From: Bacteroidia bacterium
Lineage (GTDB): Bacteria > Bacteroidota > Bacteroidia > Bacteroidales > Azobacteroidaceae
Direction: 5' to 3'
DNA: 42,733 nt
NCBI GenBank assembly: GCA_025996895.1
Contig: BNTW01000014.1
Location: 1-42,733, forward strand
In this document: in pieces, positions 6,019-24,600 of the stretch
Position numbering within the stretch: the stretch's first letter is position 1
How the letters are laid out: each line of letters opens with the position of its first letter
Notes under the pieces: generated by a model
The model's database searches: none
What the model was told of the DNA's origin: nothing
The model's input: only the letters and a program-made list of their open reading frames with translations
Program-made: the position numbers and the translations under genes

Positions 6019-7188
6019 AATATAGGTTTCCATGTCTTTATCGCCTCGCCCCGAAAGGCAGAGCACGATTATATCTTCTTTTTTAAATTTCTTTTTCCCG
6101 AAAATCCCCAACGCATGGGCGGACTCCAGTGCGGGAATAATGCCTTCCAACCGGGTAAGTTCCATCGCGGCGGCCAATGCTTCGTTGTCGTCGATAGCCA
6201 GCACTTCCGAACGTCCCTGACGCACCATGTTGGCGTGCATCGGCCCGATTCCGGGATAATCCAAGCCGGCCGAAATCGAATACGGCTCTTGAATTTGTCC
6301 GTCCGCGTCCTGCATCAGAAGTGTTTTTGCCCCGTGAATAATGCCCGTCCTTCCTAATTGAATGGTCGCAGCCGATTCGCCCGAATCCACTCCTTTGCCT
6401 GCTGCTTCCGCCAGCACAATTTTCACGCGCGGGTCGTCTAAATATTCGTAGATGGTTCCGCCGGCATTGCTTCCACCTCCCACGCAAGCCACCAGATAGT
6501 CCGGATAATCGCGCCCTTCTTTTTCAATTATTTGCTTCTTAATTTCCTTACTGATAACCGATTGCAGACGAGCAACCAGGTCGGGGTAGGGATGAGGTCC
6601 GACGGTTGAGCCGATAATATAATGTGTATTTGCCGGATGACAGCACCAATCGCGGATGGCCTCGTTGGTCGCGTCTTTCAGCGTTTGATTTCCACTCGTA
6701 ACCGGAACGACCTTTGCGCCCAGCATTTCCATTTTCTGGACATTCAGGTGTTGGCGTTCCACATCGGTTTTGCCCATATACACCACGCACTCCATATTCA
6801 TGAGGGCACAAACGGTGGCGGTCGCGACGCCGTGCTGTCCCGCGCCCGTTTCGGCGATAATGCGGGTTTTACCCATGCGGCGCGCCAGCAAAATCTGTCC
6901 GATGGTATTGTTGATTTTATGCGCACCGGTATGATTTAAATCTTCCCGCTTCAGGTAGATTTTACAGTCGTATTTTTCCGACAAGCGGCGGGCAAAATAG
7001 AGCGGGGTAGGGCGTCCGACATAATCGCTCAGCAACTCGTTATATTCCTTCTGAAACGCGGGGGCTTGCAAAATCGTTTTGTAGGTTTTTCGCAATGTTT
7101 CCACATTCGCATACAGGATTTCAGGAACATACGCCCCGCCAAACTCCCCATAATAGCCCTCTTCATTCACATCAAATTTATTATCCAT
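5983..7188 (-). CDS. trpB: Tryptophan synthase beta chain
   Basis: 401 aa. TrpB is the PLP enzyme that condenses indole with serine. The cofactor lysine is Lys91 in [19 protein letters not shown], the phosphate-binding GGGSNAGG and CLSGRGDKD are also present. It is the first structural gene of the operon, as in other Bacteroidota. The final residues (about [10 protein letters not shown]) are encoded by the AATTACG heptamer block, so its C terminus would change length if the repeat changed copy number. A second heptamer block precedes its ATG, downstream of the attenuator terminator. Confidence 0.97.
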
Positions 7189-7460: not shown

Positions 7461-7476
7461 TGGCACGCTCTTTGCT
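7461..7476 (+). promoter_or_regulatory. Sigma-54 promoter of giant surface protein 1
   Basis: TGGCACG-ctct-TTGCT, a full match to the RpoN consensus TGGCACG-N4-TTGCW, with GG at 7462-7463 and GC 12 nt downstream. The same 16 bases recur before the second paralog. The predicted start is near 7487, about 420 nt upstream of the start codon. An activator of the NtrC type would be needed. Confidence 0.82.
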
Positions 7477-7630
7477 ATATCCTATCTTCGTAACAATTTG
7501 TGATGCGAATAATTCTTAAAAAAAAGCGTGATTTATGTTGTAAAACATATAAAGTTATTTTAAAAAATGAAAAATAATATGCTACACACACACATTACTC
7601 ACCTGGCGGTTTAACAAAAATTCACACGCT

Positions 7631-7655
7631 ACGCGGCCTGTAACGCGTCTTTTTT
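7631..7655 (+). terminator. Terminator-like hairpin in leader 1
   Basis: ACGCG-gcctgtaa-CGCGT followed by CTTTTTT. The stem is short (5 bp) and on its own would be a weak terminator. The equivalent place in leader 2 keeps a 5-bp stem with different bases and the same T-run, so a role in premature termination or leader folding is possible. Confidence 0.4.
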
Positions 7656-7710
7656 CTCATGCGCGTAATATACAAAAAATATTTTTAATACGCAATATTT
7701 CCGGCGTCCG

Positions 7711-7765
7711 TCATTGCGAAGGCGGACAACAATCTGTCATTGCGGGCTTGACCCGCAATCCCCTG
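7711..7765. repeat. Palindromic repeat A in leader 1
   Basis: A half copy (gtcattgcgaaggcgg) followed by a full copy, gtcattgcgggctt-gacccgcaatcccc. It accounts for most of the 58-nt length difference between leader 1 and leader 2, so it was inserted or lost after the two copies separated. Confidence 0.8.
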
Positions 7766-7768
7766 TTT

Positions 7769-7858
7769 CCCCCCAGCCCCCTAAAGGGGGAGAAAAAGCC
7801 CTTGCAAAATTGTGCGCTGCCACTCCCTCCCCTTCGGGGGAGGGATGGGGTGGGGTTT
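7769..7858. repeat. Bipartite C/G-rich repeat B in leader 1
   Basis: Two palindromes, CCCCCAGCCCCCTAAAGGGGG and a second C-rich/G-rich pair centred on ctccccttcgggggag, joined by about 35 nt (agcccttgcaaaattgtgcg...). It is nearly identical to 21519-21606 and has the same architecture as the element inside the second giant gene at 22049-22144. Confidence 0.8.
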
Positions 7859-7863
7859 TCTTC

Positions 7864-7898
7864 AACTCATAACTCATAACTTATAATTCATAACTCAT
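7864..7898. repeat. Heptanucleotide tandem repeat before giant gene 1
   Basis: Five units of AACTCAT (aactcat, aactcat, aacttat, aattcat, aactcat) followed by aaaagt and the ATG. No Shine-Dalgarno sequence is visible, as is usual in Bacteroidota, where A/T-rich upstream sequence aids initiation. Confidence 0.85.
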
Positions 7899-7904
7899 AA
7901 AAGT

Positions 7905-10900
7905 ATGCGAACAATTAAATTTTTGACATTATTTTTTCTGTTTCTTCCCATCAGCGCATTTGCTCAATGGGATGTAGAACAACGAATGCCCTTTGAGGCA
8001 AGCACAACGTGGGACAATGTAGAGACGCGGCATGCCACGTCTCTACAATCCGGCAACGATTTTCTCTGGCAAAGCGATTTTCTCTATCGCGACCTGCATG
8101 CCGATTTGGAAACTTCGCTGTTTAATCCTTCGGGCGATTTCCTGACCAATATCTGGTCGGATAGTTATCAACGGGCAGGCGGCGGTACTTCTGCCAATCC
8201 ACCGCAAGGTGGTGAACCCAATTCCGGCGTGCCGGTGGGTAATGGCCTGCTGGTTTTTCTTATTTGCTCAATATTTTATTTTCTAATCATCCTGAAAAAA
8301 ATGAAAACAAACAAAGTAAAAACAATTACACTCGTTCTATTATTATTTGCCTCTTTACAGGCTTATGCAGACGATACGCCGATAGCCTACAGTGGAAACT
8401 TGCCGGCCGGAACAACGCTGACGATTCGTTTAGAAGACATAGGTGCAATCCCAACCGAATGTAACGCAGCTACACCGATTATCACAACTTTAAATGATCC
8501 GGCCAAAGGAACATTAGCAGCCAGCAGAGGGAAAATCGTTTATGAAAGTACATTGATTGCAGATACCATGCAGACTGACCAGTTTGTATTTTATATTAAT
8601 TGCAACGGCGGAACTTATACGGTAACGACAAATCTGAATATTGTGCCGAAGCCGGACAATGTAATTGAATCGAATTGCTTCGATAGCATAAGGCCTTTTA
8701 ATTGGGAAATGCAAACAGCCTTTCAAAGTGCCGATGCAAACAATCATAATTATGCCATTCCATTAGTTGGTGATATAGATGGTGATGGAATATCGGAGAT
8801 TATAACCTTAACAGGTGACACAGACAACCCTTCTTCTTTTATGATATACCCGGGAAATAATAGAGCAAATCTTAAAACGATTACTGTAAATCACTCTATA
8901 TATCAGGAATGGGCTGCGGGCGGGTCTGTTTGCCCTTATGGAATGTGCAAAACCCAAATAGGAGGTGTAGATACATATATATTAGTAACGACTAGCAAGG
9001 ATGGATATCTATATGCTTATGATTTAAATGGAGCGACCAGTCAAAACGAGTTATGGTCGGCTTCTTTTGGACCGGGATATTCGCTATCTATCAGTTTTGC
9101 CGACTTTGATAATGACGGCCATCCTGAAATCTATGTAGGAAATAAGATATACGATGCAGCTACCGGAAATTTGTTAGTAAGTGGAAGTGGTAATACCGGT
9201 CTTGGATATTTTGCCGCTAATTTATTTTCTGTAATTGCTTCCATGGCAGCAGATATGAATGGTGACGGAAAATTGGAATTGGTCTGTGGTACGGAAGTGT
9301 ATGCGGTAGATATTCCCAATAAGACCGGAACATCCGGAAATAGCCTGACCTTGATTCAAAAATTAACCGGTCAAACGTTTAGCAATGGAACTGTTTTTAA
9401 CGATGCTTGCAGTACGATTGCCGATATTAACCAGGATGGAAAATTGGATATCATCAATTGGAGCAATAATAACGTCAGTAGTAAATTTATTGTATGGGAT
9501 TTTGAAGGCGATACCCTTCTCTGTTCTTTCGATGTTGATATAAACATGAATGGTTTTCCTATGATTGGCAATATAGACACTGATCCTGCATTGGAGATAG
9601 TTTTTATGGGAAATGGCGGGACTTTTCTCAATTCTTTGGCCGGTTACAAGCCTGATTTCACTACAAAGACCGCTACACAGACTTATAATATAGCAGTAAC
9701 TGATGTTTCTGGTATGACAGGTATGACCTTGTTTGACTTTAATCAGGACGGTATTAATGAAATTCTTTACCGTGATGAACAAAATATGCGTGTATTGAAT
9801 GCAAACGGCAATACTTTTATTGAAAGAATGAAAATGACCTGTGGCTCTACGACTTTTTTTGAATATCCTGTTATAGCGGACGTAGATGGAGATGGGGCTG
9901 CTGAAATTATAGTTGTCGGGAATACTTACGGTGCAAGCAACGGTTATTTATGGATCTTCAATAGTGCGCAGCCTTGGGCTCCTGCCCGCTCTGTTTGGAA
10001 TCAGTATGCTTATAATGCTGTGAATGTAAATGATGATTTGACTATTCCCAAATATCAATTAAATCCTGCTACTGTGTTTGCCGGAACTGACCAAACTTTC
10101 GGTACTACCGACGATGTCAGGCCGTATAATGCTTTTTTGCAACAGCAAACTACGATCAACCAGTACGGTGTTCCATTTGTTCCTGCACCCGACTTGTCTT
10201 TTGCAACAAACTCGTCGGGAAAAGAATATACGGTAGGATACAATGCAGCTCGGGACAGCATCCGGGTTAATTTCTGCGTAACCAATTCGGGAGAAGCCTC
10301 GATAACCGGGCCGATTTCTTTTGCCCTGTACAAAAACAGCGTTTCGCCGGCAAACAGCATAGACTCGGCAAGATATACGGGAAACATTAATGTGAATGAT
10401 ACGGTCTGCCTGACCATGCACTTCAAGGCAGCAGGAATGGACTTCAACAATGTCATTATCAGCCTGAATGACTACGGAAGCGGATTTATACTGCCGGAGT
10501 GCGACACCATCAACAACCGCACAATGGTTTCTTTCTATAACGACTATTACGGCATTGCCGCTTCCACTCCTTCAGCCTTATTCGATATTTTGAACAATGA
10601 CGCAGGTATGGCAGGAGTTTCTGAAATGCACATTGACGTTTCTCCGGTTTTAACAACTACGGCAGGCTCAACCTTGGGAATAAAGACAACTCCTTCGGGT
10701 ATAGACAGCCTGATTTATACGCCGAAGCCCGGTTTTGTGGGAATAGATACGCTGACCTATTCAGCCGGCGGACAGGTCAACACAGGAAATGTCTATGTCT
10801 ATGTGCTGGAAGACTCTATTTTCAGATGCATTCCCGAAACCGTCGGCCCGGACGAAGTAATAGAGATTGATTTTATTGACATGAAAAACGATGTGGAAGT

Positions 10901-12989
10901 TCATTTCTTCCAACCTGCTCCAGACAACAGCTCGGCCAATGAGCTGACGCTACCCAACTCGTGGAACGGAACAACGATTACCTTTCCCTTGCAGGCAACA
11001 GTAACATTCAATGCTTCCAAGAGCCTGTCCGTGACGGCCTTCAACAATAAATTTCCGGTAACCTACAAAATATCGTTAGTTCCCGAATTGATGTACTGGA
11101 ACTGGACGCCCGACAAGACTGCCAACAACAACTGGAACAATCCGGCCAACTGGCTCGACGAATACGGCAATCATGTCAATGCAGTACCCTTGGCCTGTAC
11201 AACCGTGCATATTCCGGGCAATGCAGCCTATTATCCGATTTTGGACTCACTGAATACAGTCAGAAATCACCGCTACGGCGAGCCGGAATGTGATAATATC
11301 ATTTTCCATTTTGGCGGTGAAGTAGCCCAATTAAACTACCTGACTTATACCAAGGCATTTGTGCAGTACAATGTCGGTTATTACGGAGATGATGAAGACT
11401 ATGATGCAAGCCCTGTCAACGGCGACAGCATCGACAACCGGAAAGACGGAACACTCGATGTTATTTCCGCCGAGCCCATGAACCGCAGCCAGTGGTACGG
11501 CTTGGCAATCCCATTGAAAAAAGTAGCTACCGGTGATTTCAGCTTCGGCGGCAAGCCCCACACGTGGCAAATGAGCTTTATCTGTCAGCCGCACGACGGC
11601 ATTCCCGGCACTTGGACAGGTGATTTCACCGTTCCGTTTAACACCAACGGTATTGAATTGAACAACGATTACGCTTATTCCTACGCTTTTTGGGCCAATA
11701 GACATCAGGCAGGAGAAATCGGTAGTGATGGAAATAATACCACTTATCAATATCAATCCGGCTTGCAGGGCGTAAAAGGAATTATTGAGCTTCCATTTTA
11801 CGAAAAACCGGCTATCAGCACTTTCCACCGCAATCATATCTTTACCCCGGACGGAAGTGGCAATCCAAGCAATGGCGCCAGTTCGTTCTGGTATTATCAA
11901 TGGTATCAGCCGAGCCAGCCGAGAGATTATAACGTAACACCCGGAACCATTCAGCGCGACCGTTCGGCCTACCGGTTCATTTTCGACGAAAAGATTGATA
12001 CGGTCAATATAGGTGGAACAGACAAAGCGGTTTTCACCATGCGTGTTCCCGCCGGCTCGGAAATCATGGTCGGTAATCCCTATCTATCGTCTTTGGATTT
12101 CACGGAGTTTTACAATGCCAACAGCACAAAAATAGAAAACCGCTACCGTTTGTTTGAAGATGAAACGTTTAATGTGTATTCATTGAGCGACAACGATACG
12201 ATCGCTGTTTTGCAGGGCTTTTTCATTAAGACTACCGGCACAGTCGGCGATTCGCTCGACCTTTACTTCCCGTTTGAAACGGTTTCGGTAACAAGAGCAA
12301 TCAGCTCACCGCACGATAATTACTTTAAAGCTTTTAAAGGCTTTAAAGGCCTTAATGAAGACGACCGGATAACCGTAACCGCCACAAGCAACGGAAAAAG
12401 CAATAAAGCAAGGTTAAACCTCAGCCAAGAGAACGGCAACAACATCTACAAATTGTTTTACGAAGAAGCACAAGTAACTCCTCAAATCTATTTCACTGAC
12501 GAACGCGGTCAAAAGAACGAAATCCAGTATGCAGCCAAGGAAAGTCAAACGACCGTTCCTCTGGGACTTCGCAGTAATCAGGGCAGACGAATCACGCTGA
12601 CGTTTGATACTGACGCCAATCTGGAAATGCTGACGTTGCTGGACAAGAAAACCGGTCAAAAGCAGGATTTGCTGCAAAACAATTCCTATACTTTCACGCA
12701 GAGCGACAATGCAGCTTATTCCGACCGCTTCGAGGTTAGTTTCAAATCACCGACAGCCATCGGTGAGATAAAGAACGAAAATAAAATCGCGATTTATCAA
12801 ACAAACAATCTATTGACGGTTTCGGCAACGGAAAATCTGCAATCGGTGGAATTACTGGATATTCAGGGTAGAAAAATCAAGAAAGCAGGGAACATCAACC
12901 ACCCGTTCTACCAAATGGAGTTGAATGTGCCGGCAGGGGTGTATTTGGTGAAGGCAGATGCAACGACGCACAAAATTATTGTGAAATAA
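7905..12989 (+). CDS. Giant FG-GAP/VCBS surface protein 1 with T9SS sorting domain
   Basis: 1694 aa. Signal peptide (residues 1-20, ending SAFA-Q), then a ~90-residue module shared with the second paralog (MPFEAST.WDN, FLWQSDFLYRD, SLFNPSGDFLTN), a hydrophobic segment near 112-131, and at Met133 (nt 8301) a second signal-peptide-like start (MKTNKVKTITLVLLLFASLQAYA). Seven FG-GAP/VCBS-type calcium-binding repeats follow at about residues 289-670 (e.g. GDIDGDGISEI, ADVDGDGAAEI), then WNQYAY near 698, cadherin/Big-like beta domains, and a T9SS type-A sorting domain in the last ~80 residues (ending AGVYLVKADATTHKIIVK). Likely an adhesin-like protein exported through SprA. A palindromic repeat at 8018-8047 is translated within the N-terminal module. 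Function beyond surface display is unknown. Confidence 0.85.
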   Translation: MRTIKFLTLFFLFLPISAFAQWDVEQRMPFEASTTWDNVETRHATSLQSGNDFLWQSDFLYRDLHADLETSLFNPSGDFLTNIWSDSYQRAGGGTSANPPQGGEPNSGVPVGNGLLVFLICSIFYFLIILKKMKTNKVKTITLVLLLFASLQAYADDTPIAYSGNLPAGTTLTIRLEDIGAIPTECNAATPIITTLNDPAKGTLAASRGKIVYESTLIADTMQTDQFVFYINCNGGTYTVTTNLNIVPKPDNVIESNCFDSIRPFNWEMQTAFQSADANNHNYAIPLVGDIDGDGISEIITLTGDTDNPSSFMIYPGNNRANLKTITVNHSIYQEWAAGGSVCPYGMCKTQIGGVDTYILVTTSKDGYLYAYDLNGATSQNELWSASFGPGYSLSISFADFDNDGHPEIYVGNKIYDAATGNLLVSGSGNTGLGYFAANLFSVIASMAADMNGDGKLELVCGTEVYAVDIPNKTGTSGNSLTLIQKLTGQTFSNGTVFNDACSTIADINQDGKLDIINWSNNNVSSKFIVWDFEGDTLLCSFDVDINMNGFPMIGNIDTDPALEIVFMGNGGTFLNSLAGYKPDFTTKTATQTYNIAVTDVSGMTGMTLFDFNQDGINEILYRDEQNMRVLNANGNTFIERMKMTCGSTTFFEYPVIADVDGDGAAEIIVVGNTYGASNGYLWIFNSAQPWAPARSVWNQYAYNAVNVNDDLTIPKYQLNPATVFAGTDQTFGTTDDVRPYNAFLQQQTTINQYGVPFVPAPDLSFATNSSGKEYTVGYNAARDSIRVNFCVTNSGEASITGPISFALYKNSVSPANSIDSARYTGNINVNDTVCLTMHFKAAGMDFNNVIISLNDYGSGFILPECDTINNRTMVSFYNDYYGIAASTPSALFDILNNDAGMAGVSEMHIDVSPVLTTTAGSTLGIKTTPSGIDSLIYTPKPGFVGIDTLTYSAGGQVNTGNVYVYVLEDSIFRCIPETVGPDEVIEIDFIDMKNDVEVHFFQPAPDNSSANELTLPNSWNGTTITFPLQATVTFNASKSLSVTAFNNKFPVTYKISLVPELMYWNWTPDKTANNNWNNPANWLDEYGNHVNAVPLACTTVHIPGNAAYYPILDSLNTVRNHRYGEPECDNIIFHFGGEVAQLNYLTYTKAFVQYNVGYYGDDEDYDASPVNGDSIDNRKDGTLDVISAEPMNRSQWYGLAIPLKKVATGDFSFGGKPHTWQMSFICQPHDGIPGTWTGDFTVPFNTNGIELNNDYAYSYAFWANRHQAGEIGSDGNNTTYQYQSGLQGVKGIIELPFYEKPAISTFHRNHIFTPDGSGNPSNGASSFWYYQWYQPSQPRDYNVTPGTIQRDRSAYRFIFDEKIDTVNIGGTDKAVFTMRVPAGSEIMVGNPYLSSLDFTEFYNANSTKIENRYRLFEDETFNVYSLSDNDTIAVLQGFFIKTTGTVGDSLDLYFPFETVSVTRAISSPHDNYFKAFKGFKGLNEDDRITVTATSNGKSNKARLNLSQENGNNIYKLFYEEAQVTPQIYFTDERGQKNEIQYAAKESQTTVPLGLRSNQGRRITLTFDTDANLEMLTLLDKKTGQKQDLLQNNSYTFTQSDNAAYSDRFEVSFKSPTAIGEIKNENKIAIYQTNNLLTVSATENLQSVELLDIQGRKIKKAGNINHPFYQMELNVPAGVYLVKADATTHKIIVK
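8018..8047. repeat. GTAGAGACG palindrome inside giant gene 1
   Basis: A 30-nt near-perfect palindrome, TGTAGAGACG at one end and CGTCTCTACA at the other, centred on GGCATGCC, with one mismatched pair. It is translated as NVETRHATSLQ; the second paralog has an unrelated sequence at this place. Confidence 0.8.
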
Positions 12990-13010
12990 AGGATTGGATA
13001 TTCATAGGTT

Positions 13011-13043
13011 ATGGAGACGTTGTACGCAGCGTCTCCATTTTTT
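13011..13043 (+). terminator. Intrinsic terminator after giant gene 1
   Basis: ATGGAGACG-ttgtacgcag-CGTCTCCAT, a 9-bp perfect stem followed by TTTTTTG, 22 nt after the stop codon. The stem arms resemble the GAGACG palindrome family, so a repeat may serve as terminator. A weaker inverted repeat CGTAT/ATACG with T-rich sequence follows at 13064-13078, before ruvA. Confidence 0.8.
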
Positions 13044-13132
13044 GTGTATTTGAAAAAAACAATCGTATCATTTATACGCTTTTTGCTTTTTCTCCGTTAT
13101 TATTTAGTATTAGCTAATTCAAAAACGAACGT

Positions 13133-13723
13133 ATGTTGGATTTTATCAAAGGCGAAATCGTCGAATTGACGCCCGCTTCGGTTGTCGTAGAAGCCGGACA
13201 ATTGGGCTATTTGGCACATATTTCACTAAATACTTATTCGGCACTGACCGGACAGAAAAATTGTAAATTGTATGTTTATGAGGTGATTAGGGAAGATGCT
13301 CACCTGCTTTTCGGATTTGTGGAAAAACGCGAACGCGATTTGTTCTTGTTGCTGATTTCCGTTTCGGGCGTGGGGGCGAATACGGCACGCATGGTACTTT
13401 CGTCGCTGGCGGTGTATGAGCTGGAAGGCATTATTGCGTCGGGCAATGCGTCGGCATTGAAAACGGTGAAAGGAATTGGTGCAAAAACGGCCGAACGGAT
13501 TATCCTCGACCTCAAAGATAAAGTGAAACCCGGACAAATGCCCGCAGGCACGGCTTCTGCACAGGCTTTCTCCGATTCTGAAACAGCCAAAGAAGCGGTG
13601 GCCGCTCTGGTGATGCTGGGCTTCAATCAGCCGGCTTCGCAAAAGACGGTCGGCAAAATCGTCAGCGGTAATCCTTCGCTGACGGTCGAACAAGTAATAA
13701 AAAACGCGCTTAAAATGCTTTGA
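13133..13723 (+). CDS. ruvA: Holliday junction branch migration protein RuvA
   Basis: 196 aa. RuvA binds four-way junctions as a tetramer and loads the RuvB motor. The N-terminal OB fold (MLDFIKGEIVELTPASVVVE), two helix-hairpin-helix motifs (VSGVGANTARMVLSSL and VKGIGAKTAERIILDLKDKV) and the C-terminal RuvB-binding domain (TAKEAVAALVMLGF...) are all present. Its TGA overlaps the ATG of sprA by one base (TGATG), so the two are almost certainly co-transcribed and coupled. No clear TAnnTTTG promoter was seen in the 140 nt upstream. Confidence 0.97.
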   Translation: MLDFIKGEIVELTPASVVVEAGQLGYLAHISLNTYSALTGQKNCKLYVYEVIREDAHLLFGFVEKRERDLFLLLISVSGVGANTARMVLSSLAVYELEGIIASGNASALKTVKGIGAKTAERIILDLKDKVKPGQMPAGTASAQAFSDSETAKEAVAALVMLGFNQPASQKTVGKIVSGNPSLTVEQVIKNALKML

Positions 13724-16700
13724 TGAAAAAACGTTGGACGAAATACATACTCTTTCTCGCTATCGCCGTTTTGGCGGGGCTTTGCTACGAATTGAATGCG
13801 GATTTGACTACCGTCAGTTCGCAACTTCCCGAAGTGAAAGAGGTGTCGGCCAACGATACGACCCCGCGTTTTCCGGTGGCACCGGTTGTCCCCGAAACGC
13901 AAAAAGATTTGGAAAAAACCTATCCGATCGACTTAACAACCCCTTTGAATTTAAACGATGAATTTGAATATAATCCGCTGACCAATCGCTACGAAATGCG
14001 TCCTCAAATTGGCGGCATGGATATTACTACGCCGATTTCGCTCACGCAAGAAGAGTATTTGAATTATACCCTGCAAAAAAGCATGAGTTCGTATTTCAAA
14101 TCGCGGAATGCGGAAGAAGACGGCGAAACGGCCGACGGAACGAAGAAAAAAGACGACGGCCTGTCGATGTTCGATTTTAATTTCGACTTGGGGCCGGCCG
14201 ACAAGATTTTCGGGCCGGGCGGTGTGCGCTTGCAGGCGCAGGGAAGCACGACCATCAAAGCCGGAATTATTCATACGTCGAGCGGAAATCCGACTTTGTC
14301 AGAACGCCAGCGCAATCACACGACTTTCGATTTCGACCCGCAAATTCAGACTGTCATCACCGCTTCGGTCGGTGATAAATTGAATTTTGATTTGAATTAC
14401 AATACGCAATCGACTTTCGATTTCGATTCTAAAAAACTAAAATTGGGCTATACCGGTAAAGAGGACGAGATTATTAAGGTGCTGGAAGCAGGAAATGTCA
14501 GCATGAACACGACTAACTCGCTTATTCGGGGCGGGGCAGCTTTGTTTGGGATTAAAACCGAATTACAGTTCGGCAAGTTGACGGTCGGTGCCATTTTCTC
14601 GCAACAGGAATCGCAATCGCGCTCCACTTCGTCGAAGGGAAGCATACAGACCACGCCGTTTGAAATCACGGTAGATAATTACGACGAGAATATGCACTTT
14701 TTCCTGACGCATTATTTTCACGACACGTACGACCGCTCGATGGAAACGCTGCCTTACATTCAGTCGGGTATCAGTATCGACCGGATTGAAGTTTGGATAA
14801 CGAACAAACGCTCGAACTACAATCAGGCGCGGAACATCGTTACTTTTGCCGATTTGGGCGAACAATTGCACCTCAGTAATCCGACGGTGGTGAAACCGAA
14901 TATTATACAGGAAACGCCCCCTTATCAACGGATTAATACGTTGTACGAAACATTGCTTGGTATTGACGCTCGTAACATCAGTTCGGTCAGTCAGGTTTTG
15001 GAAGGCATTGGGCTTCGAGGCGGAATAGATTACGAAAAAATTGAAAATGCCCGCAAATTGGAGCTATCGGAGTACAGTCTCAACGAGAAATTAGGCTACA
15101 TCAGTTTGCGGATGCCGTTGCAGCCGGACGAGGTGTTGGGTGTGGCGTTTTCTTATACTTATAGAGGCCAAGTGTATCAAGTGGGTGAATTTTCGACTGA
15201 TAATCCCGACCGTCCTTCGGAAAATTTGTATTTGAAAATGGTGAAGGGAACGACTCAGTCGCCTTCGTCGCCCGGTTGGCCGTTGATGATGAAAAACGTC
15301 TATACCATTACTCCGCGCAGTTTGCAACAGGAAAAATTTCGTTTGGATATTAAGTATTTGAACGATACGACCGGCGTTTATCTCAATTATTTGACCGAAG
15401 GCGCGATAGCCAACCAATTGTTGTTGCGCGTGGAAAATCTGGATAGATTAAACTCGCGTCAAGAACCTTATTCCGACGGATTTTTCGACTTTGTGGAAGG
15501 CTATACCGTTGTGTCGCAATACGGAAAGATTATTTTCCCGAGTGTTGAGCCGTTTGGAAAATACTTGCGGGATAAAATTGTGGGCAAAGATAGTGCGAAC
15601 ATAAAGATTGCCCAAAAATATGTGTTTCAGGAATTGTATGATTCTACTTTGACGATTGCCCGCCAGACGGCCGAAAAAAACAAATTTATCTTGACCGGCG
15701 AATACAAGGGATCAGGTGGAGCAAGTTTGGAATTAAACGGGTCGAACCTTGCGCGAGGCTCGGTAGTAGTTATGGCCAACGGCGTCCGCTTGGTGGAAAA
15801 CCGGGATTATACGGTTAATTATTCGACCGGCGACGTCAATATTATTAATCCGGTATATGAGAATGCCCAAATTCAAACCTCGTATGAAGATCAGTCGGGT
15901 TTTGCCATGCAGCGAAAAACCATGATGGGATTAAACCTGAATTACGCTTTTTCGCCGAAATTCAATTTCGGGGCAACGATTATGAATTTAAGCGAAATGC
16001 CTCTTACGCTGAAAACCGGGCCGGGTGAGGAATCCATTAATAATACCTTGTTTGGTTTCAACACCAATTATTCGACACAGTCGCAATGGCTGACCAACTT
16101 GGTCGATAAACTGCCGTTGGTCGAGCTGACCGCGCCTTCGCAAATTACGTTCAGTGCGGAATATGCGCAGCTTATTCCCGGACACTACAAGAGTGAGTGG
16201 GGCGGAGATTATTCTTACATCGACGATTTTGAGCGTGCGAAAATGTCCATTGATTTGCGTTCGACTTATTCGTGGAAATTGTCGGCCACGCCTTCCCTGT
16301 TTCCCGAATCGCGTAAATCGAACGACTTGGCTTATGGAAATAACCGCGCGTTGCTGGCGTGGTATAACATCGACCCGTTATTCACTCGCAAATCCTCTTT
16401 GACACCTTCGCATCTCAAAGACGACTACAAACAGCTGTCGAATCATTATGTACGGGAAATCAATGAAAACGAGTTGTTTCCGAATAAGGATGTGCGTTTC
16501 AACGAGGCTTCGACTATTCCGGTGTTGAATTTGGCGTTTTATCCGAAAGAACGCGGGCCGTATAATTTGGACGCACAGGGTACAAATCCCGATGGAACGC
16601 TGGCCAATCCTGAAGGACGCTGGGGGGGAATTTACCGCCGAATCGAAAGCGGACAGACCGATTTTGAAGCCAATAACATCGAGCACATCGAATTTTGGTT

Positions 16701-19700
16701 GATGGATCCGTTTATTTACGATAAAAATGCCAAAGGGGGCGATTTATATTTCAACTTGGGAGAAATTTCGGAAGATGTGTTGAAAGACGGAAAGAAATTT
16801 TTTGAAAATGGTCTGCCCATCGACGGCGATACGAGTAAGGTCGAAAAAAACGTATGGGGCTATGTTCCCAAGCAACAATCGCTGAATTATGCGTTTGATG
16901 ACACACAGTCTAATTCGCGCCGTATGCAAGACGTTGGCCTGAACGGATTGAGCACCGAGCAGGAATTGGCTTATCCGGCTTATATGAAATATTTGGAGGA
17001 TTTGCGGAGAAATCTTACGCCCGAAACCGTTGAGCGAATGGAAAAAGACCAATTCTCGCCTTTACGCGACCCTGGCGGCGATATTTACCACTATTTTCGA
17101 GGCTCGGATTACGACAGTGAAAAGCTATCTATTTTGGGACGCTATAAGCATTATAACGGAACGGAAGGTAATTCGCGCGCGTCCAGTGATTCGCCCGAAA
17201 GCTATAATACGGCCGCTTCAATCAATCCTGATGTGGAAGACATCAATCAAGATAACACGCTGAACGAGAATGAGAAATATTTTCAATATAAGGTTTCCCT
17301 TCGTCCGGAAGATTTGAAAGTGGGAGATAATTTTATTGTCGATAAGCGCGAAACTACGCCATTGCTGAAAGACGGCAGCCGTGAAACGATTACGTGGTAT
17401 CAATTTAAAATCCCCATTCGCGAATATGCGTCGCAAGTGGGTGGTATCAGCGATTTCCAGACCATTCGCTTTGTCCGTATGTTTATGACGAATTTTACGG
17501 ATTCGGCGGTGCTCCGTTTCGGGACGCTTGAATTGGTGCGGGGCGATTGGCGGATTTATACCAAAGACATACGCAATGGCAATATGCCGGCTTCGGGTAA
17601 TGCCGCCGTCAGTCTTTCGACCGTCAATATCGAGGAAAACGGCGACAAAGTGCCGGTGAATTACATTATGCCGCCGGGCGTCAATCGAATGACCGATCCG
17701 GGACAACCGCAGCTGATTATGCAAAACGAGCAGTCGTTGTCGATGAAGATTGCGGATTTGTCGGCGGGCGATGCGCGTGCCATTTATAAAAGTTCGGGCT
17801 TGGATACACGTCAATACCGGCGTCTGCAAATGTTTGTCCATGCCGAAAAACCGGAAGAAGATGTTAATGGATTGGTCGACAACGAATTGTCTGTTTTTCT
17901 GCGTCTTGGCTCGGATTATAAAAACAATTATTACGAATACGAAATTCCGTTGAAAATCACACCGCCTGCACCCCCTCAGGGTTATAGCGGAAACAGTAAC
18001 AGCGACCGCGAACTTGTGTGGCCGCAAAGCAACATGTTCGATTTTACGTTTAAGTTGCTCACTGATTTGAAGTTAAACCGCAACCGCGAAAAGCGCAAAG
18101 CCGGCTCGGACGTAACTTATTCTACGCCGTATTCCGAATTTGATCCCGAAAAACCGATGAACAAAATGACGGTAGTGGGAAATCCGACTCTTTCGGACGT
18201 GAAAGTGATTATGATCGGCGTCCGCAACAATTCACATCACGACAAGTCGGTGGAAGTCTGGACAGACGAATTGCGTTTGACTGAATTTAACGAAGATGGC
18301 GGCTGGGCAGGAAATGCCAACTTGTTCGTCGGCCTGTCGGATTTAGGCTCGCTCAATTTCTCCGGACACAAAGAGACAGCCGGCTTCGGCGGGTTGGATC
18401 AGGGCATTATGGATAGAAATCTGGACGACAAGCAGTCAGTTAATTTCTCCGCTCAAATCGACATGGGCAAATTTTTTCCGGAAAAAACCAAAGTGAGTTT
18501 ACCGGTTTATTATTCTTATCGCGAAGATTTGGTCAGCCCGAAATATAACCCGCTCGATCAGGATATTTTGTTGAAAGACGCTTTAAACGCAGTAGAAACG
18601 AAGGCTGAACGCGATTCTATCAAGGGTTTTGCGCAAGACAAAGTCATCAACCGCTCGTTCGACCTCAACAACGTGCGCGTGAATGTGGTGAGTAAAAAGC
18701 CCATGCCCTACGATCCGGCTAATTTATCATTAAGCTATTCATTTACAGAAAATAAAGTGCAGAACGCCACGACCGAATATGAACGGCAAACCGACCAACG
18801 TTTGCTGTTGGGCTACCTCTATTCGCCGATGTTTAAGATGTGGAAACCGTTTGCCAGAAGCAACAATAACAATAAAGGAACACAAAAAAAATCGACAAGT
18901 TCGTCCAACAAGTTTTCGGACGAAATACAAATCGGCTTTTTGCCCAAAAGCATTGCCTTCAACTCAGATATCAACCGGAATTATTTTGAATTAAAACTGC
19001 GCGATTTGGGCAGTTTGGGCAGTTTGGGTGAAAATACGATACCTGTTTCTGTCCGCGAAGAATTTTACTGGAACCGAACGTCGGCCATTCAGTGGGATTT
19101 GACGAAAAATTTGCAGTTGAATTTGAACACCGGCACGAATGCGCGTATCGAAGCTCCGCACGTGCAGGTAAATAAAAAGTTCAAGATGGATGACTACAAC
19201 TTGTGGAAGGACAGCGTAATGATGTCTATCCGTGATTTGGGTACGCCGGTGGATTACAATCAAAATTTCTCGGCGACGTATCAGTTGCCGTTCAAAGCCA
19301 TTCCGATTTTAAATTTTATCACCGGAGGTCTGTCATATCGGGCGCAATACAGCTGGGAACGCGGGGTGGTTATTACGCGCGAAGAGGAAATGATTGAAAC
19401 AGGCAACGTGATTACCAGCGAGCGGACCATGGGCATGGATAATATTTCCTTCAACCTGTTGACGTTGTATAACAAATCCAAGTTTTTGGAAAAAGTCAAT
19501 AAAAAATTCACGCTGGCTAAAACGAACACGAGTTTAAACCGTAACGCCCGGCAGACGCAAACGGCCACACAGCGGGCGCAGAAAGCAGCAGACGAAAAGA
19601 AAAACAAAAAATACGAAGGCAATGTCCGGCTCAATCCGGATTCCGCTACGGTTGTCCGGCACTCGTTAGATAACAAACGCCTGCGGGTCACAGCGCGCGG

Positions 19701-21255
19701 AGCGGACGGAAAATTGTATGAAATCAGCTATAAAGCGATAGACAACAACACGATACGGATTAAAAACAAAGACTCTGTCGAATTGAAATTAAACATTTCA
19801 CAATTACCGCCGTTAGACGATTTACCCTGGTATAAAGTGGCGCAAGTGGCTGCACGCGGTTTGATGATGGTGCGGAATGTTAGTTTTTCCTACAACCAGA
19901 CGCAGGGCTTGATGATACCGAACTTCCGGCCTGAAATCGGCGATTTCTTCGGGCAAGGCAACACGTCTTACGGTAAGTCGCCGGGTGTGGATTTTGCTTT
20001 CGGCTTGGCCGATGAAAGCTACCTCGACAAAGCCTACGCCAACGATTGGCTGATTAAGGACGAGGACAATGTCAATCCGGCCATGTTCAACAAAACCGAG
20101 ATGCTGAACATCACGGCCTTGCTTGAGCCGTTTGTGGGCTTGAAAATTAATCTGACGGCCAATCGAACGGCAACTAACCAAAGTCAGGTGTATTTTATGT
20201 ACGATGGTATGCCGAAACGTTTCACCGGTAATTTCAGCATGACGGCGATTTCGTTTTCGATTTTCGATAAAACAGGCGCAGACTATTATTCCGAAACGTT
20301 TAATAACTTTTTGAATAACAGGGAAGTCATTGCCGGTCGCTGGGCAAATGCTTACCGGCAGGTATCGACTTATCCGAATGCCGGATTTTTGCAACAAGAC
20401 GGCTATGCGGGCAAGCCTTATAATGTGGAAGAGAATAATATCAATCTCAATTCGGCCGATGTGCTTATTCCCTCGTTTATTTCCGCCTATATGGGCAAAA
20501 ATGTGCATACCGTCGGTTTGGATTTCTTCCCCTCGTTGCGCAGTCTGCTTCCGAATTGGCGGGCGACCTACGAAGGTTTTATCCAATTGCCGTTTATCAA
20601 AAAGCATTTCAAATCTTTCACACTCGAACACGAATACAAATGCCGTTACATGGTCGGTGCATATAATTCCTACCTCGATTGGGTAGAAGCCGGCGACGGT
20701 ATCGGTTTTATCCGCAACAACACAACCAACCGGCCGGTGGCTTCGTCGCCTTACGACATAACGGCGGTGAGTATTACAGAAGCCTTTGACCCGCTGTTGC
20801 GTATTAACTCTACGTTCCTCAATAACATGAGTCTGAAAATGGAATACAAGACGTCGCGTAATATCAATTTAAATATCTCGTCGTATCAGATTGTAGAAAT
20901 GACGATGACTGATTTCGGTGCCGGTTTGGGCTATCGCTTTGAAAACTTTAATAAAGTGCTGAAACTGAAGAAGACCGGTGGGGCGAATTTCAACAACGAA
21001 CTGAAAGTGTCGGCCGATGTGTCGTACCGGAAAAGCCAAAGTTTGATACGGAAAATTCAGGAAGAATATACGCAGCCCACGAGCGGGGATTCGCAAATCA
21101 TGCTGAAATGCACGGCCGACTACAATATGAGTAAAATGGTTACCTTACAAGCCTTTTTAGACAAGCAAATCAGCCGCCCGTTGGTGTCTTCCAGTGCATT
21201 TCCGTTTTCCAAAACAGCATTCGGCGTAAGCGTAAAAGTCAGCTTGGCGCGATAG
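13723..21255 (+). CDS. sprA: T9SS outer-membrane translocon SprA (Sov)
   Basis: 2510 aa from ATG 13723 (an in-frame TTG at 13720 lies inside the ruvA 3' end and is less likely). SprA is the very large outer-membrane beta barrel through which type IX cargo leaves the periplasm; it is required for secretion and, in gliding species, motility. Evidence is the length, the N-terminal hydrophobic export segment (about residues 8-24), family-like segments such as FNFDLGPADKIFGPGGVRLQ, NYSTGDVNIINPVYEN, YSYIDDFERAKMSIDLRS and EHIEFWLMDPF, and the beta-strand-rich C terminus ending in KVSLAR. It is intact, with no repeat insertion noticed. It lies between two genes for predicted T9SS cargo of one family. 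Confidence 0.96.
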   Translation: MKKRWTKYILFLAIAVLAGLCYELNADLTTVSSQLPEVKEVSANDTTPRFPVAPVVPETQKDLEKTYPIDLTTPLNLNDEFEYNPLTNRYEMRPQIGGMDITTPISLTQEEYLNYTLQKSMSSYFKSRNAEEDGETADGTKKKDDGLSMFDFNFDLGPADKIFGPGGVRLQAQGSTTIKAGIIHTSSGNPTLSERQRNHTTFDFDPQIQTVITASVGDKLNFDLNYNTQSTFDFDSKKLKLGYTGKEDEIIKVLEAGNVSMNTTNSLIRGGAALFGIKTELQFGKLTVGAIFSQQESQSRSTSSKGSIQTTPFEITVDNYDENMHFFLTHYFHDTYDRSMETLPYIQSGISIDRIEVWITNKRSNYNQARNIVTFADLGEQLHLSNPTVVKPNIIQETPPYQRINTLYETLLGIDARNISSVSQVLEGIGLRGGIDYEKIENARKLELSEYSLNEKLGYISLRMPLQPDEVLGVAFSYTYRGQVYQVGEFSTDNPDRPSENLYLKMVKGTTQSPSSPGWPLMMKNVYTITPRSLQQEKFRLDIKYLNDTTGVYLNYLTEGAIANQLLLRVENLDRLNSRQEPYSDGFFDFVEGYTVVSQYGKIIFPSVEPFGKYLRDKIVGKDSANIKIAQKYVFQELYDSTLTIARQTAEKNKFILTGEYKGSGGASLELNGSNLARGSVVVMANGVRLVENRDYTVNYSTGDVNIINPVYENAQIQTSYEDQSGFAMQRKTMMGLNLNYAFSPKFNFGATIMNLSEMPLTLKTGPGEESINNTLFGFNTNYSTQSQWLTNLVDKLPLVELTAPSQITFSAEYAQLIPGHYKSEWGGDYSYIDDFERAKMSIDLRSTYSWKLSATPSLFPESRKSNDLAYGNNRALLAWYNIDPLFTRKSSLTPSHLKDDYKQLSNHYVREINENELFPNKDVRFNEASTIPVLNLAFYPKERGPYNLDAQGTNPDGTLANPEGRWGGIYRRIESGQTDFEANNIEHIEFWLMDPFIYDKNAKGGDLYFNLGEISEDVLKDGKKFFENGLPIDGDTSKVEKNVWGYVPKQQSLNYAFDDTQSNSRRMQDVGLNGLSTEQELAYPAYMKYLEDLRRNLTPETVERMEKDQFSPLRDPGGDIYHYFRGSDYDSEKLSILGRYKHYNGTEGNSRASSDSPESYNTAASINPDVEDINQDNTLNENEKYFQYKVSLRPEDLKVGDNFIVDKRETTPLLKDGSRETITWYQFKIPIREYASQVGGISDFQTIRFVRMFMTNFTDSAVLRFGTLELVRGDWRIYTKDIRNGNMPASGNAAVSLSTVNIEENGDKVPVNYIMPPGVNRMTDPGQPQLIMQNEQSLSMKIADLSAGDARAIYKSSGLDTRQYRRLQMFVHAEKPEEDVNGLVDNELSVFLRLGSDYKNNYYEYEIPLKITPPAPPQGYSGNSNSDRELVWPQSNMFDFTFKLLTDLKLNRNREKRKAGSDVTYSTPYSEFDPEKPMNKMTVVGNPTLSDVKVIMIGVRNNSHHDKSVEVWTDELRLTEFNEDGGWAGNANLFVGLSDLGSLNFSGHKETAGFGGLDQGIMDRNLDDKQSVNFSAQIDMGKFFPEKTKVSLPVYYSYREDLVSPKYNPLDQDILLKDALNAVETKAERDSIKGFAQDKVINRSFDLNNVRVNVVSKKPMPYDPANLSLSYSFTENKVQNATTEYERQTDQRLLLGYLYSPMFKMWKPFARSNNNNKGTQKKSTSSSNKFSDEIQIGFLPKSIAFNSDINRNYFELKLRDLGSLGSLGENTIPVSVREEFYWNRTSAIQWDLTKNLQLNLNTGTNARIEAPHVQVNKKFKMDDYNLWKDSVMMSIRDLGTPVDYNQNFSATYQLPFKAIPILNFITGGLSYRAQYSWERGVVITREEEMIETGNVITSERTMGMDNISFNLLTLYNKSKFLEKVNKKFTLAKTNTSLNRNARQTQTATQRAQKAADEKKNKKYEGNVRLNPDSATVVRHSLDNKRLRVTARGADGKLYEISYKAIDNNTIRIKNKDSVELKLNISQLPPLDDLPWYKVAQVAARGLMMVRNVSFSYNQTQGLMIPNFRPEIGDFFGQGNTSYGKSPGVDFAFGLADESYLDKAYANDWLIKDEDNVNPAMFNKTEMLNITALLEPFVGLKINLTANRTATNQSQVYFMYDGMPKRFTGNFSMTAISFSIFDKTGADYYSETFNNFLNNREVIAGRWANAYRQVSTYPNAGFLQQDGYAGKPYNVEENNINLNSADVLIPSFISAYMGKNVHTVGLDFFPSLRSLLPNWRATYEGFIQLPFIKKHFKSFTLEHEYKCRYMVGAYNSYLDWVEAGDGIGFIRNNTTNRPVASSPYDITAVSITEAFDPLLRINSTFLNNMSLKMEYKTSRNINLNISSYQIVEMTMTDFGAGLGYRFENFNKVLKLKKTGGANFNNELKVSADVSYRKSQSLIRKIQEEYTQPTSGDSQIMLKCTADYNMSKMVTLQAFLDKQISRPLVSSSAFPFSKTAFGVSVKVSLAR

Positions 21256-21262
21256 AAATTTT

Positions 21263-21278
21263 TGGCACGCTCTTTGCT
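21263..21278 (+). promoter_or_regulatory. Sigma-54 promoter of giant surface protein 2
   Basis: TGGCACG-ctct-TTGCT, identical over 16 bases to the site at 7461-7476, with GG at 21264-21265 and GC at 21276-21277. It begins 8 nt after the sprA stop codon. Similarity to leader 1 starts at the T-run immediately before this site and does not extend upstream. Confidence 0.82.
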
Positions 21279-21426
21279 GTAATCTACTTCCGTAACAATT
21301 TAGTGATGCGAATAATTCTTAAAAAAAAGTGTGATTTATGTTGTATAACATATGAAATTATTTTAAAAAATGCAAAATAATATGCTACACACACACATTA
21401 CTCACCTGGCGGTTTAACATAAATTC

Positions 21427-21458
21427 ACACGCTACAAGCCCTGTAACGTGTCTTTTTT
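21427..21458 (+). terminator. Terminator-like hairpin in leader 2
   Basis: ACACG-(15 nt)-CGTGT followed by CTTTTTT. It occupies the same place as the ACGCG/CGCGT hairpin of leader 1; the 3' arm differs (CGTGT for CGCGT) and pairs with a different 5' partner. A weak terminator or leader structure. Confidence 0.35.
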
Positions 21459-21518
21459 CACTCGCGCGTAATATACAAAAATTATTTTTAATACGCAACA
21501 ATCCCGAAGGCGTTTTCA

Positions 21519-21606
21519 CCCCCCAGCCCCCTAAAGGGGGAGAAAAAGTCCTTGCAAAATTGTGCGCTGCCACTCCCTCCCCTTCAGGGGAGGGTTGGGG
21601 TGGGGT
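21519..21606. repeat. Bipartite C/G-rich repeat B in leader 2
   Basis: CCCCCAGCCCCCTAAAGGGGG, a ~35-nt linker and a second C-rich/G-rich pair centred on ctccccttcaggggag, then ttggggtgggg. Nearly identical to 7769-7858. Confidence 0.8.
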
Positions 21607-21612
21607 TTTCTC

Positions 21613-21640
21613 AACTCATAACTCATAATTCATAACTCAA
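21613..21640. repeat. Heptanucleotide tandem repeat before giant gene 2
   Basis: Four units: aactcat, aactcat, aattcat, aactcaa, then an A-run and gt before ATG 21649. One unit fewer than before giant gene 1, so the copy number differs between paralogs. Confidence 0.85.
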
Positions 21641-21648
21641 AAAAAAGT

Positions 21649-24600
21649 ATGCGAACATTTATTTATCTAATCTTGTTTTTGCTTCTTCCCTCTGGAGTTT
21701 TCGCCCAATGGGAAATGGAACAACGAATGCCCTTTGAGGCAAGCACATCGTGGGACAATGGTTTGGCATCCCAAGATGTTTTTTTGTGGCAGAGCGATTT
21801 TCTCTATCGCGACATGTATGCCGATTTCAGCAGCTCGCTGTTTAATCCTTCGGGCGATTTCCTGACCAATGTCTTCGGTAGTTCTTATCTGGGCACCGGT
21901 ATTTCCACCGACGACGGGCATCGCGACCACTTGGCCATCTCATCTATTCCGATAGGAAGCGGCGGTTTGTTTTTGCTGATAATTTCAGTATTGTATTTTT
22001 CTATTTTATTCACTAAAAAACATTTGCTCAAGATGAAAACAACAATACACCCCTCTAAATCTCCCCTGAAGGGGAGACTTTGGCTGACGCACAACGTTGA
22101 AAGTTCGCAGACTCTCAAATCCCCCTTCAGGGGGTTTGGGGGCAAATTATCTCTGCTTATTTTATTGTTCCTGACAATTTTCACCGGAAACATACGTGCT
22201 CAAGTGCATGCCGGAAATAACGATTTCTTTGTTCAACCGAACTCAACCGATAATTATCTGAACGTGTTTCGCTCGGACGAGTTAGGCGGTTGCGATGAAA
22301 CTACAATCAAGATAATAATCACGCAAAACCCTCACGGAACAGCGACAGCAGCGATTAATTCGGCTACAAACAGCAATTCGATAAAATATACACCACCCAT
22401 CACCGGTTTTATACAAGACACGTTAAAATACAAAATTGCTTGCGCTAATGACACATCCAATGTGGCTACAGTATATATTAATATAGCAGACAAGCCGGAA
22501 AATATTATGGAAGAAGTCTGCGAAATAACGCCACAACCTACTGTCTGGGCAATGAGAGAAGCAGACAATTTAGGAGAAGTTGATGCTTATCAAATATCTC
22601 TCATTGGAGATATGGACGGAGATGGAAACCCCGAAATTGTTACGGTTTATCAACATGGTACTCAACAAACTCCAATATCTGACATGCATGCTGGAAATTC
22701 GGCACAAAACCTGACAGTATTCAGAGGAGTAACTCATTCAAGAATTAATTTTCCGACTGTAGCTCCTTTCACTTGTGTTGCACCGGGAATAATCGGCATC
22801 GTCAAAACAAAGATTCAAAATAGTTCAGGTATTGAACAAGATTCGGCAATTATTGTGGTAGCTGAGGGTGATTTTTACTTAAGGGCTTATGACATGTACG
22901 GCAATCTGGTATGGACTGCTTCGGATAAGTGGACCAATCTTACTTATGCCAATGACAATTATCCGGGTATTTCCGTTAATTTTGCTGACTTCAACAATGA
23001 CGGATATGCAGAAGTATATGTGGGTAATAGAATATTCGACGCAGCGACAGGAACATTGCTTTGCCAAGGAACAGGAAATGACGGAAGTGCTTGGGTTCCT
23101 GGTTCTACGGAAAATCAATGGCATGCTAATCTAACTATTGCTGGAGATGTGTATGGCGATAGTCGTTTGGAATTAATTGCCGGTAACCAGATTTATCAGG
23201 TAGAATCTGATTTAACTTCCATGACAGTGGTGCAACAGCTAAATTCGAGCTTATTGACGTGTATTGAAGATGGCTCACAGATAATTACCGGAGACGGTTA
23301 TACACAACTAGCAGACATTGATGGTGATGGAAATTTAGATATTATTGTGGAAAATCTCACATCGACAAACCAAGTTTTTATTTATATTTGGAGTCCTGCC
23401 AAGAATACACTTTTAGCTCAGAAGTTGATTTCTACGTCTCCTACGAGCATAAGATTCGGAGTTCCTTTTATCGGTGACATTGATGGAGATAGTAAAGTTG
23501 AAATTTTGTTTATTGCAGGTAGAGTGTATTCCGTATCTACTACCTATTTTCTTTATGCTTATAAATATGTTGAAGGGAATAACTTATTACAACTCTTTTG
23601 GAAGTTAAGTCATGAAGACAATTCTCTGATGACTGGACTTACTTTATTTGATTTCAATCAAGATGGAGTAGCTGAAATTGTTTATAGAGACGAAAAAAAC
23701 TTACGAATTATCAATGGAAGCGGTACAGGAGTAAATTATTTAGACAATCCTGCTACAATAAATCCTACAACTAAACTATTAACCAATTATGAATTAGTCG
23801 CACCGCTTGTCTGTACTTCGGCAACAGGTTATGAATATCCGGTCATAGCCGATATTGATAATGATGGCGAAGCGGAAATAATTATTCCAGGAGGCACATC
23901 GGCAAACCCTTTAAATGCACCCTTGCGTATCTTTAAATCCAATGGTAGTTCATGGGCCCCTGCCCGCCCTGTATGGAATCAATATGCTTACAATCCTGTT
24001 TATATCAACGACGATTTGACTGTTCCTGCCCATCCGCTCAATCCCGCTACCGGCTTTGTCGGCAAAAGCGAAACTACCGGTAACGATACTATCCGGTATC
24101 CGTTCAACAACTTTCTCCAGCAGGCAACCCTGTTGAACGAGCACGGCCGGATGTTCCGCGCAGTAGCCGACTTGGCTTTCGACAAGACACAGGGAACAAA
24201 CAGCAAGGGGATTACTTTTGTGAAAAACGGCAATGATTATAATGTAACGGTGTATGTAACCAATGTAGGCGACTTCGACTTTCCCCGAAACAGCAGTTCC
24301 GCCAACCTGCAAATCACGGCCAATATCAAAAACAGTCTGGGAAATATAGAAAGGGTATATACCGGCGTTTTCACGCAAGGCGTTGCCAAAGGCGGATTTC
24401 AAACCTATACCTTCACCATAACAGGCATTGCTGCGACGGTTACCGACCCCGACGACAATATCCAAATCGTGTTGAATGATTTGGACGGCGACATCTATCA
24501 CGGCGACGAAGAATGCAAGAAGTGGAACAATTACAGCCTGTCGTTAGCCGGTATTCAAAATGTACTGCTGTGCGAAGGCCCCGGTCAAATTCAGTTTGGT

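Follow-up and report, generated by a model that had tools for sequence, protein, structure and literature searches.

The 42,733-nucleotide stretch analysed here (the window; contig BNTW01000014.1, our C14), from a draft genome of the family Azobacteroidaceae (assembly GCA_025996895.1, here G000; 3.12 Mb in 258 contigs, 97.68% complete), carries two identical promoter motifs of the sigma-54 (RpoN) type, each in front of a gene for a giant surface protein. We propose, with a probability of roughly 0.78, that both sites are true sigma-54 promoters and that they are two of at least 44 copies of a set specific to this species, each placed on a shared leader that precedes surface protein genes; this proposal rests on comparison of sequences within and between genomes. 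The organism is uncultured and probably an inhabitant of the termite gut, as the closest named relatives of its sprA gene occur in metagenome-assembled genomes (MAGs) labelled Candidatus Symbiothrix, Candidatus Azobacteroides and Dysgonamonadaceae, which, helped by literature listings, we take to be termite-gut lineages. Thirty-seven further genomes of the genus, referred to below as congeners, were searched for comparison.

An earlier note on this DNA had pointed to TGGCACG-CTCT-TTGCT at both places, and TGGCACGCTCTTTGCT does occupy positions 7461 to 7476 and 21263 to 21278, both on the forward strand, these being the sole exact matches in the window. Both sites are assigned from the motif scan, the first also from the conservation profile of the 44 copies, and transcription would be expected to start near 7487 and 21289, respectively. 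If up to two mismatches are allowed, the window holds 12 matches against a shuffle mean of 6.5, a count of 12 being reached in one of 100 shuffles. The full RpoN consensus with its correct GG/GC spacing, TGGCAC-N5-TTGC, fits both sites as the note had claimed, and it holds equally for the 44-copy set. Across G000 there are 29 exact matches to the box, and 69 with at most one mismatch compared with 17 for a reversed control pattern. TTGGCACGNNNNTTGCW is matched 29 times in G000 (control 0) and between one and three times in 13 of the 37 congeners, with no match in the others; a looser sigma-54 pattern gives 47 matches in G000 (control 3) and from 0 to 15 in the congeners, some of which exceed their own control. 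One sigma-54-like site, TTGGTACGCTCTTTGCA (box at 2630 of locus L240), lies upstream of a gene for a BetR-domain protein that is followed by a THDPTVV-like surface gene. The note's remark that the other recognisable promoters of the window are of the housekeeping type was checked lightly: TTTG-N16-20-TAnnTTTG occurs five times, whereas 200 base-shuffles contain it 0.79 times on average and never more than 4 times.

The promoters come as part of a larger unit. In 28 of the 29 exact sites the box marks the beginning of one and the same leader of about 240 bp, whose copies in the window span 7461 to 7697 and 21263 to 21500 on the forward strand by alignment of the leader copies; the identity of the two window sites is due in part to duplication of the leaders that they open, the alignment of which runs from the box onward. 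The remaining exact site (C25:32940, at 3941 of locus L239) has no leader, and its box starts 278 nt from the end of the contig. When leader DNA lacking the box was used as a BLAST query, 41 rows were returned that correspond to 40 distinct places (two rows lie in one copy), and 39 of these 40 carry the box, which is the figure that is independent of selection by the box. The fortieth, on C65, has a sigma-54 spacer one base too long (an extra T) and is followed by a gene that by eye looks like that of a transporter; this apparently spacing-defective copy before such a gene is a single case, in the direction expected. To these come five more boxes, three on truncated leaders (C36, C53, C66) and two on copies that a contig end interrupts (C75:142, C83:121), so that the total is at least 44, these 44 having been chosen by box (at most three mismatches) and inverted repeat. 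The copy numbers for G000 are lower bounds, as 40 of 75 candidates from the leader BLAST were scored, and 20 of 42 in the comparison with congener leaders described below. Conservation over the 44 copies begins two bases before the box, and the information content jumps from 0.26 to between 1.84 and 2 bits at its edge: positions -20 to -3 hold 0.05 to 0.53 bit per base, TTTGGCAC 1.84 to 2, the spacer less, and TTTG again 1.84 to 2. GG and TTG are present in 44 of 44 copies and the next C in 42.

Past the box the leader contains four elements, namely an inverted repeat, a short tract of CA, a core that is nearly invariant and a CGCG segment carrying a T run. In copy 1 these are TATGTTGTAAAACATAT at 7534 to 7550, an (AC)5A tract at 7584 to 7594, the core CACATTACTCACCTGGCGGTTTAA at 7591 to 7614 and a weak terminator-like element, a CGCG hairpin and then CTTTTTTCTC, at 7631 to 7658; in copy 2 the inverted repeat, TATGTTGTATAACATAT, lies at 21337 to 21353 and the core, again CACATTACTCACCTGGCGGTTTAA, at 21394 to 21417, all on the forward strand. 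In most copies the inverted repeat stands about 71 to 75 nt past the first base of the box, with other spacings of 35, 42 to 44, 79 and 83. G000 holds 42 exact matches to it, 36 of them inside leaders by our own count, and 99 with one mismatch against 18 for the control, both strands of the palindrome being counted. Stray copies were considered as a clue to the activator, and six places inspected showed no clear link; a Cas9-like gene (MAKYLGLDLGTNSIGWAI.., recognised by eye) lies near one stray repeat, near position 2700 of L245. Three leader copies (L013, L019 and L319) stop part-way and run into unrelated DNA, by recombination or by assembly joins. Between leader and start codon, at 7780 to 7905 and 21520 to 21648 of the window, there are GC-rich repeats (CCCCCAGCCCCCTAAAGGGGG, CTCCCTCCCCTTCAGGGGAGGG) and CTCATAA arrays, and such arrays lie directly 5' of the start codon in nearly all of the copies tabulated.

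The genes behind the leader are of one general kind. In the window they encode giant surface protein 1 (7905 to 12989, 1694 aa), whose C-terminus resembles that of type IX secretion system (T9SS) cargo and scores just under the curated cut-off, and giant surface protein 2 (21649 to 26706, 1685 aa), with a T9SS type A sorting domain; both genes are on the forward strand and Pfam finds FG-GAP repeats in both proteins. Genome-wide, all 27 copies that combine an intact box, a leader and a readable gene precede exported-looking proteins, so that the boxes do concentrate before genes for exported proteins, a point that the earlier note had proposed to check. This readout took only frames starting MR, MK or MA, and an unfiltered choice of the longest frame gave the same genes; each of the 27 starts with MR followed by a hydrophobic, signal-peptide-like stretch, as judged by eye. 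According to their N-termini, 14 are of the FG-GAP type, seven of a YW/HW type, four have a GTDFW-like motif and two are of a THDPTVV type, and the FG-GAP part of giant 1 used as a query matches 10 of the 14 loci of its group. Eight other downstream proteins were scanned, of which two contain PF17517 (IgGFc_binding), one gave sub-cut-off matches only and five gave nothing. Six of nine closed downstream frames reach tails of the GVY..K type. For the sorting domain TIGR04183 (cut-off 23 bits) the scores are 29.3 for giant 2, 25.1 for L061, 24.6 for L073 and 22.0 for giant 1, with no match in L064, the frame of which ends early. Leader subtype is linked to protein group, with exchanges (Fisher p = 0.0006, 27 genes, hand-filled table). 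Co-regulation of surface genes by the sigma-54 set is thus supported by gene association. The suggestion that an RpoN activator may switch on a family of surface proteins together stands in that respect; the set is far larger than the two genes from which it was drawn, it covers four protein groups, and the unit shared is promoter plus leader.

Between the two giant genes lies sprA, a gene of the T9SS/gliding translocon (13723 to 21255, forward strand; PF14349, 715.8 bits). In relatives, no giant gene was found beside ruvA-sprA at E 1e-8 in the 25 of 80 loci listed, several of which have short flanks, and this does not amount to a mapped empty site. Both giants open with a module of about 130 residues (window 7905 to 8370 and 21649 to 22210), comprising a signal-peptide-like start and a PVGNG/PIGSG hydrophobic stretch, that continues in frame into an apparent second signal peptide; on C3 a protein with a similar start is encoded by a separate open reading frame (L240, about 6104 to 6583).

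The machinery for such promoters is encoded in the genome. The earlier note had called for a search for rpoN, which is present as one PF04552 match of 172.7 bits in a 505-codon frame, and the family occurs in 36 of the 38 genomes of the genus, G000 included. NtrC-type activators, also called for, are represented by six PF00158 matches above the cut-off, three of them convincing (E below 1e-60), whose GAFTGA-type loops read, by eye, GSFTGA, GAFTDA and GSFTGA. One of the three is an AAA+ protein with a Fis-type helix-turn-helix (HTH) beside an lptE-like gene, another has a receiver-AAA+-HTH arrangement and adjoins a sensor kinase, and the remaining one is a receiver-AAA+ protein lacking an HTH beside a hybrid kinase, the neighbours being named by eye.

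Comparison within the genus places the leader in a wider family. Own leader DNA compared with 22 congeners and 16 genomes of other families gave short matches only, and the leader core has no exact match in named genomes (a set from which G000 itself may be excluded). Homologues of the FG-GAP part of giant 1 are found in G049 (11) and in four other congeners (one each), and several of the G049 genes share a leader of their own that combines a promoter of the housekeeping class with a (GA)n tract, a CG-rich segment and a strong terminator. With this leader as the lead, 41 related (GA)n leaders were found in 13 of the 37 congeners (L269 to L318); for two of the 13, G051 and G044, the match rests mainly on the GA tract itself, and G018 was left out since its flank differs. 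The genes behind them encode giant surface proteins, NusG proteins of the UpxY kind (all three that were tested have PF02357, one of them barely above the cut-off), an HU-HIG protein, SusC-like proteins and others, the latter two classes named by eye. None of the 41 has a sigma-54 box (at most one mismatch) within 260 nt upstream. Instead, 34 have the housekeeping -7 box TAnnTTTG before the tract, 27 of them at 102 to 117 nt and seven, all from G014, at 135 to 138. Measured from TTTG to tract, the median distance is 114.5 in these congener leaders (n 34) and, with the TTTG of the sigma-54 -12 box taken for G000, 112 (n 31); the count used 35 of the 41, with L274, L277, L278, L287, L303 and L308 omitted because TAnnTTTG was absent from its usual position, as it was from one of the 35.

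A profile of the congener sequence after the tract, built with no G000 sequence, matched 25 of 25 own leaders of a non-redundant set on the right strand; its sole other match is a further own leader copy, C91:9653, and the reversed control gave one match with E 0.18. In the reverse direction, own leader against congener loci, matches are weak and mixed. We conclude from these alignments that the own leader descends from the congener (GA)n leader family, the (AC)5A tract being its counterpart of (GA)n, and that its promoter class probably changed in place in one species, from housekeeping to sigma-54. At the end of a contig from a MAG labelled Dysgonamonadaceae (L156) there is a similar stem and, after it, (CA)17, which may connect the GA type of leader with the CA type. 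The dinucleotide tract itself could be a switch, in which slippage changes the copy number of (GA)n or (CA)n and turns single genes on or off. Tract length does range from 6 to 40 in the 41 congener leaders and from 3 to 8 in 31 own copies, and such leaders precede surface, capsule, SusC-like and some other genes, but 25 of the 31 own copies listed have five repeats, the variation seen is between copies, and a small open reading frame that runs across the tract loses its frame in some of the own copies, its start codon being kept in some congeners only; we regard a slippage switch as unlikely. The same small frame (MRTIL...HTHITHLAV) was rejected as the main function of the leader, since it is open in one subtype and has stops or frameshifts in others.

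In the RNA, a terminator-like hairpin with a T run follows the tract in 27 of the 35 congener leaders with enough sequence, against 3 to 7 in five shuffles, and 22 of these hairpins reach -15 kcal/mol or better, against none in shuffles. Own leaders have terminator-like hairpins in 17 of 31 cases, compared with 0 to 3 in shuffles, the copies being non-independent. For a stem before the GA tract, 15 leaders hand-picked for the stem type show 92% of cells paired and a covariation score reached by none of 500 shuffles, with just one pair changing on both sides. Forced on all 41 rows (40 with a GA tract and L156), the stem fell to 60.5%, with 104 of 500 shuffles reaching the score, and was dropped as a general feature, some genomes having a different stem. 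Rfam gave no match above the gathering score in five own and seven congener loci. Since congener leaders usually end in an apparent intrinsic terminator and some precede genes for NusG paralogs of the UpxY type, the leader would seem to add a second step to transcription; the length of the downstream genes and the NusG-paralog neighbours in some congeners make conditional termination or antitermination our preferred form of that step, held at somewhat less than even odds.

Taken together, RNA polymerase carrying RpoN, switched on by one of the activators that the genome encodes, would start about 97 nt before the CA tract and make a transcript comprising some 210 nt of shared leader, the remaining 5' untranslated region and the gene of an exported, often giant, T9SS-type surface protein. 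The leader would be the older, genus-level part, in which the place of the housekeeping -7 box became the sigma-54 -12 box in the G000 species, and it may gate these long transcripts by conditional termination or antitermination. More broadly, and tentatively, we suggest that gut bacteria of the Azobacteroides/Symbiothrix type possess a family of leader RNAs (stem, dinucleotide tract, CG-rich segment and terminator) that gates surface and capsule transcripts by antitermination, and that in one species the whole family then passed, in place, from promoters of the housekeeping class to those of the sigma-54 class, which would have rewired more than 40 surface genes at once.

A number of observations count against this reading. 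The 44 copies are paralogues, selected partly by the box, so that their conservation partly reflects recent copying and selection. Some congeners show an excess of relaxed sigma-54-like sites, up to 15 against 3 in the control, as ordinary sigma-54 promoters would give. Seventeen of the 44 copies have no readable gene, all of them at most 585 nt from a contig end, and three of the nine closed downstream frames end early, apparently interrupted. A shared upstream enhancer was looked for in 40 of the 44 copies and only A/T words were found in common. The terminator-like hairpins of the own leaders are weak, a stable fold of the own leader was given up when three folded copies proved no better than shuffles, and compensatory changes occur in none of 29 predicted RNA pairs. 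Finally, tblastn with three NusG paralogs found none in the fetched own loci, no genome-wide search of G000 having been made.

Several of these points would also suit a selfish or passively copied repeat that rides along with surface genes and exerts no coordinated control: contig ends so close to 17 copies are what repeats produce, upstream flanks are unrelated, subtypes have been exchanged between protein groups and three copies are truncated. Against such a repeat, conservation is focused on the sigma-54 contact positions and adjoining bases vary, the 27 readable intact copies precede genes for exported proteins only and the misplaced copy on C65 has the wrong spacer, and we consider it improbable. 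The lack of a common upstream motif bears on where an activator might act. Twelve of 40 copies have an open frame of 90 codons or more, on the same strand, whose end falls between -12 and +18 of the box; sprA is one such frame, and its stop codon ends 7 nt before promoter 2, which leaves no intergenic room for an upstream enhancer; such an enhancer is therefore unlikely, and either the leader holds the activator site or the activator works without one. The leader might then be primarily a DNA site, with an activator bound to ATGTT-N4-AACAT downstream of the start as a downstream enhancer and with conservation mostly about initiation. The crowding upstream, the position of the inverted repeat in most copies and its concentration in leaders all suit this idea. 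Its variable spacing in the others does not, and one activator lacks a DNA-binding domain and could act without a site; moreover, the tract, the core and the CGCG part are conserved too, and the part after the tract is common to congeners with housekeeping promoters. We find a downstream enhancer as the chief role of the leader doubtful, and retain the gated leader behind a sigma-54 promoter as the preferred reading.

Parts of this arrangement have precedents. In Flavobacterium psychrophilum, promoter mutagenesis is reported to show that transcription of the T9SS adhesin operon remFG-sprCDBF depends in part on a -24/-12 motif, and the operon has a second, alternative promoter; three PF00158 proteins are predicted and chaperone genes belong to the regulon (PMC9723704). 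Like G000, this is a member of the Bacteroidota with a sigma-54 motif at genes for surface proteins, those of G000 being probable T9SS cargo, and its three predicted PF00158 proteins compare with the three convincing ones of G000, whereas the available part of that report describes no shared leader and G000 has 44 near-identical promoter-leader units before genes for exported proteins. A general link of sigma-54 to surface-related functions, as controller of the bacterial exterior, has been drawn (PMC3162934) and shares the surface theme; in what was available of its main text 'bacteroid' does not occur and no leader family is described. A 2025 survey of sigma-54 mentions Bacteroidota, and the accessible main text contains neither 'type IX' nor 'surface protein' (PMC12316311). 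In Pseudomonas aeruginosa, RpoN and its activator Sfa2 are described as coordinating dispersed secretion genes, those of the H2 type VI secretion system (H2-T6SS) and vgrG islands (PMC8855297), in another phylum, with other cargo and with no common leader in the sections at hand. The TAACTGA direct repeats of Beggiatoaceae, many short intergenic copies with a proposed regulatory role (PMC4679880), differ in sequence, lineage and layout from the G000 leader, to judge from the portion available. For the leader, the nearest parallel is Bacteroides fragilis, in which UpxY NusG paralogs are described as antiterminators of capsule operons with prematurely terminating 5' leaders (PMC7819879, PMC7593976) and are reported, in the text available, to prevent that premature termination (PMC7819879). 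Related (GA)n leaders precede UpxY-like NusG genes in some congeners; unlike the B. fragilis case, any dependence of the G000 leader on such a factor is hypothetical, and tblastn found no such gene in the G000 loci fetched. Searches of the open-licence literature returned nothing fitting on dinucleotide-repeat leaders of Bacteroidota, phase variation in termite Bacteroidales or Azobacteroides surface proteins. Sigma-54 control of a T9SS adhesin is thus already known, and the (GA)n leader family is one for which we found no description in that literature.

Sigma-54 promoters are silent without an activator, and a symbiont with this arrangement could therefore hold back a large fraction of its surface and then release it in one step. 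With the housekeeping -7 box replaced by a sigma-54 -12 box, one signal could control dozens of dispersed surface genes, and as all readable genes behind intact copies look exported, a single switch may serve to turn on much of the cell's outer coat. If true, the species-specific change from housekeeping to sigma-54 at a conserved position would clearly exemplify the rewiring of a regulon within a genus, and the leader family would offer a concrete, testable element in how these bacteria control their surface and capsule genes.

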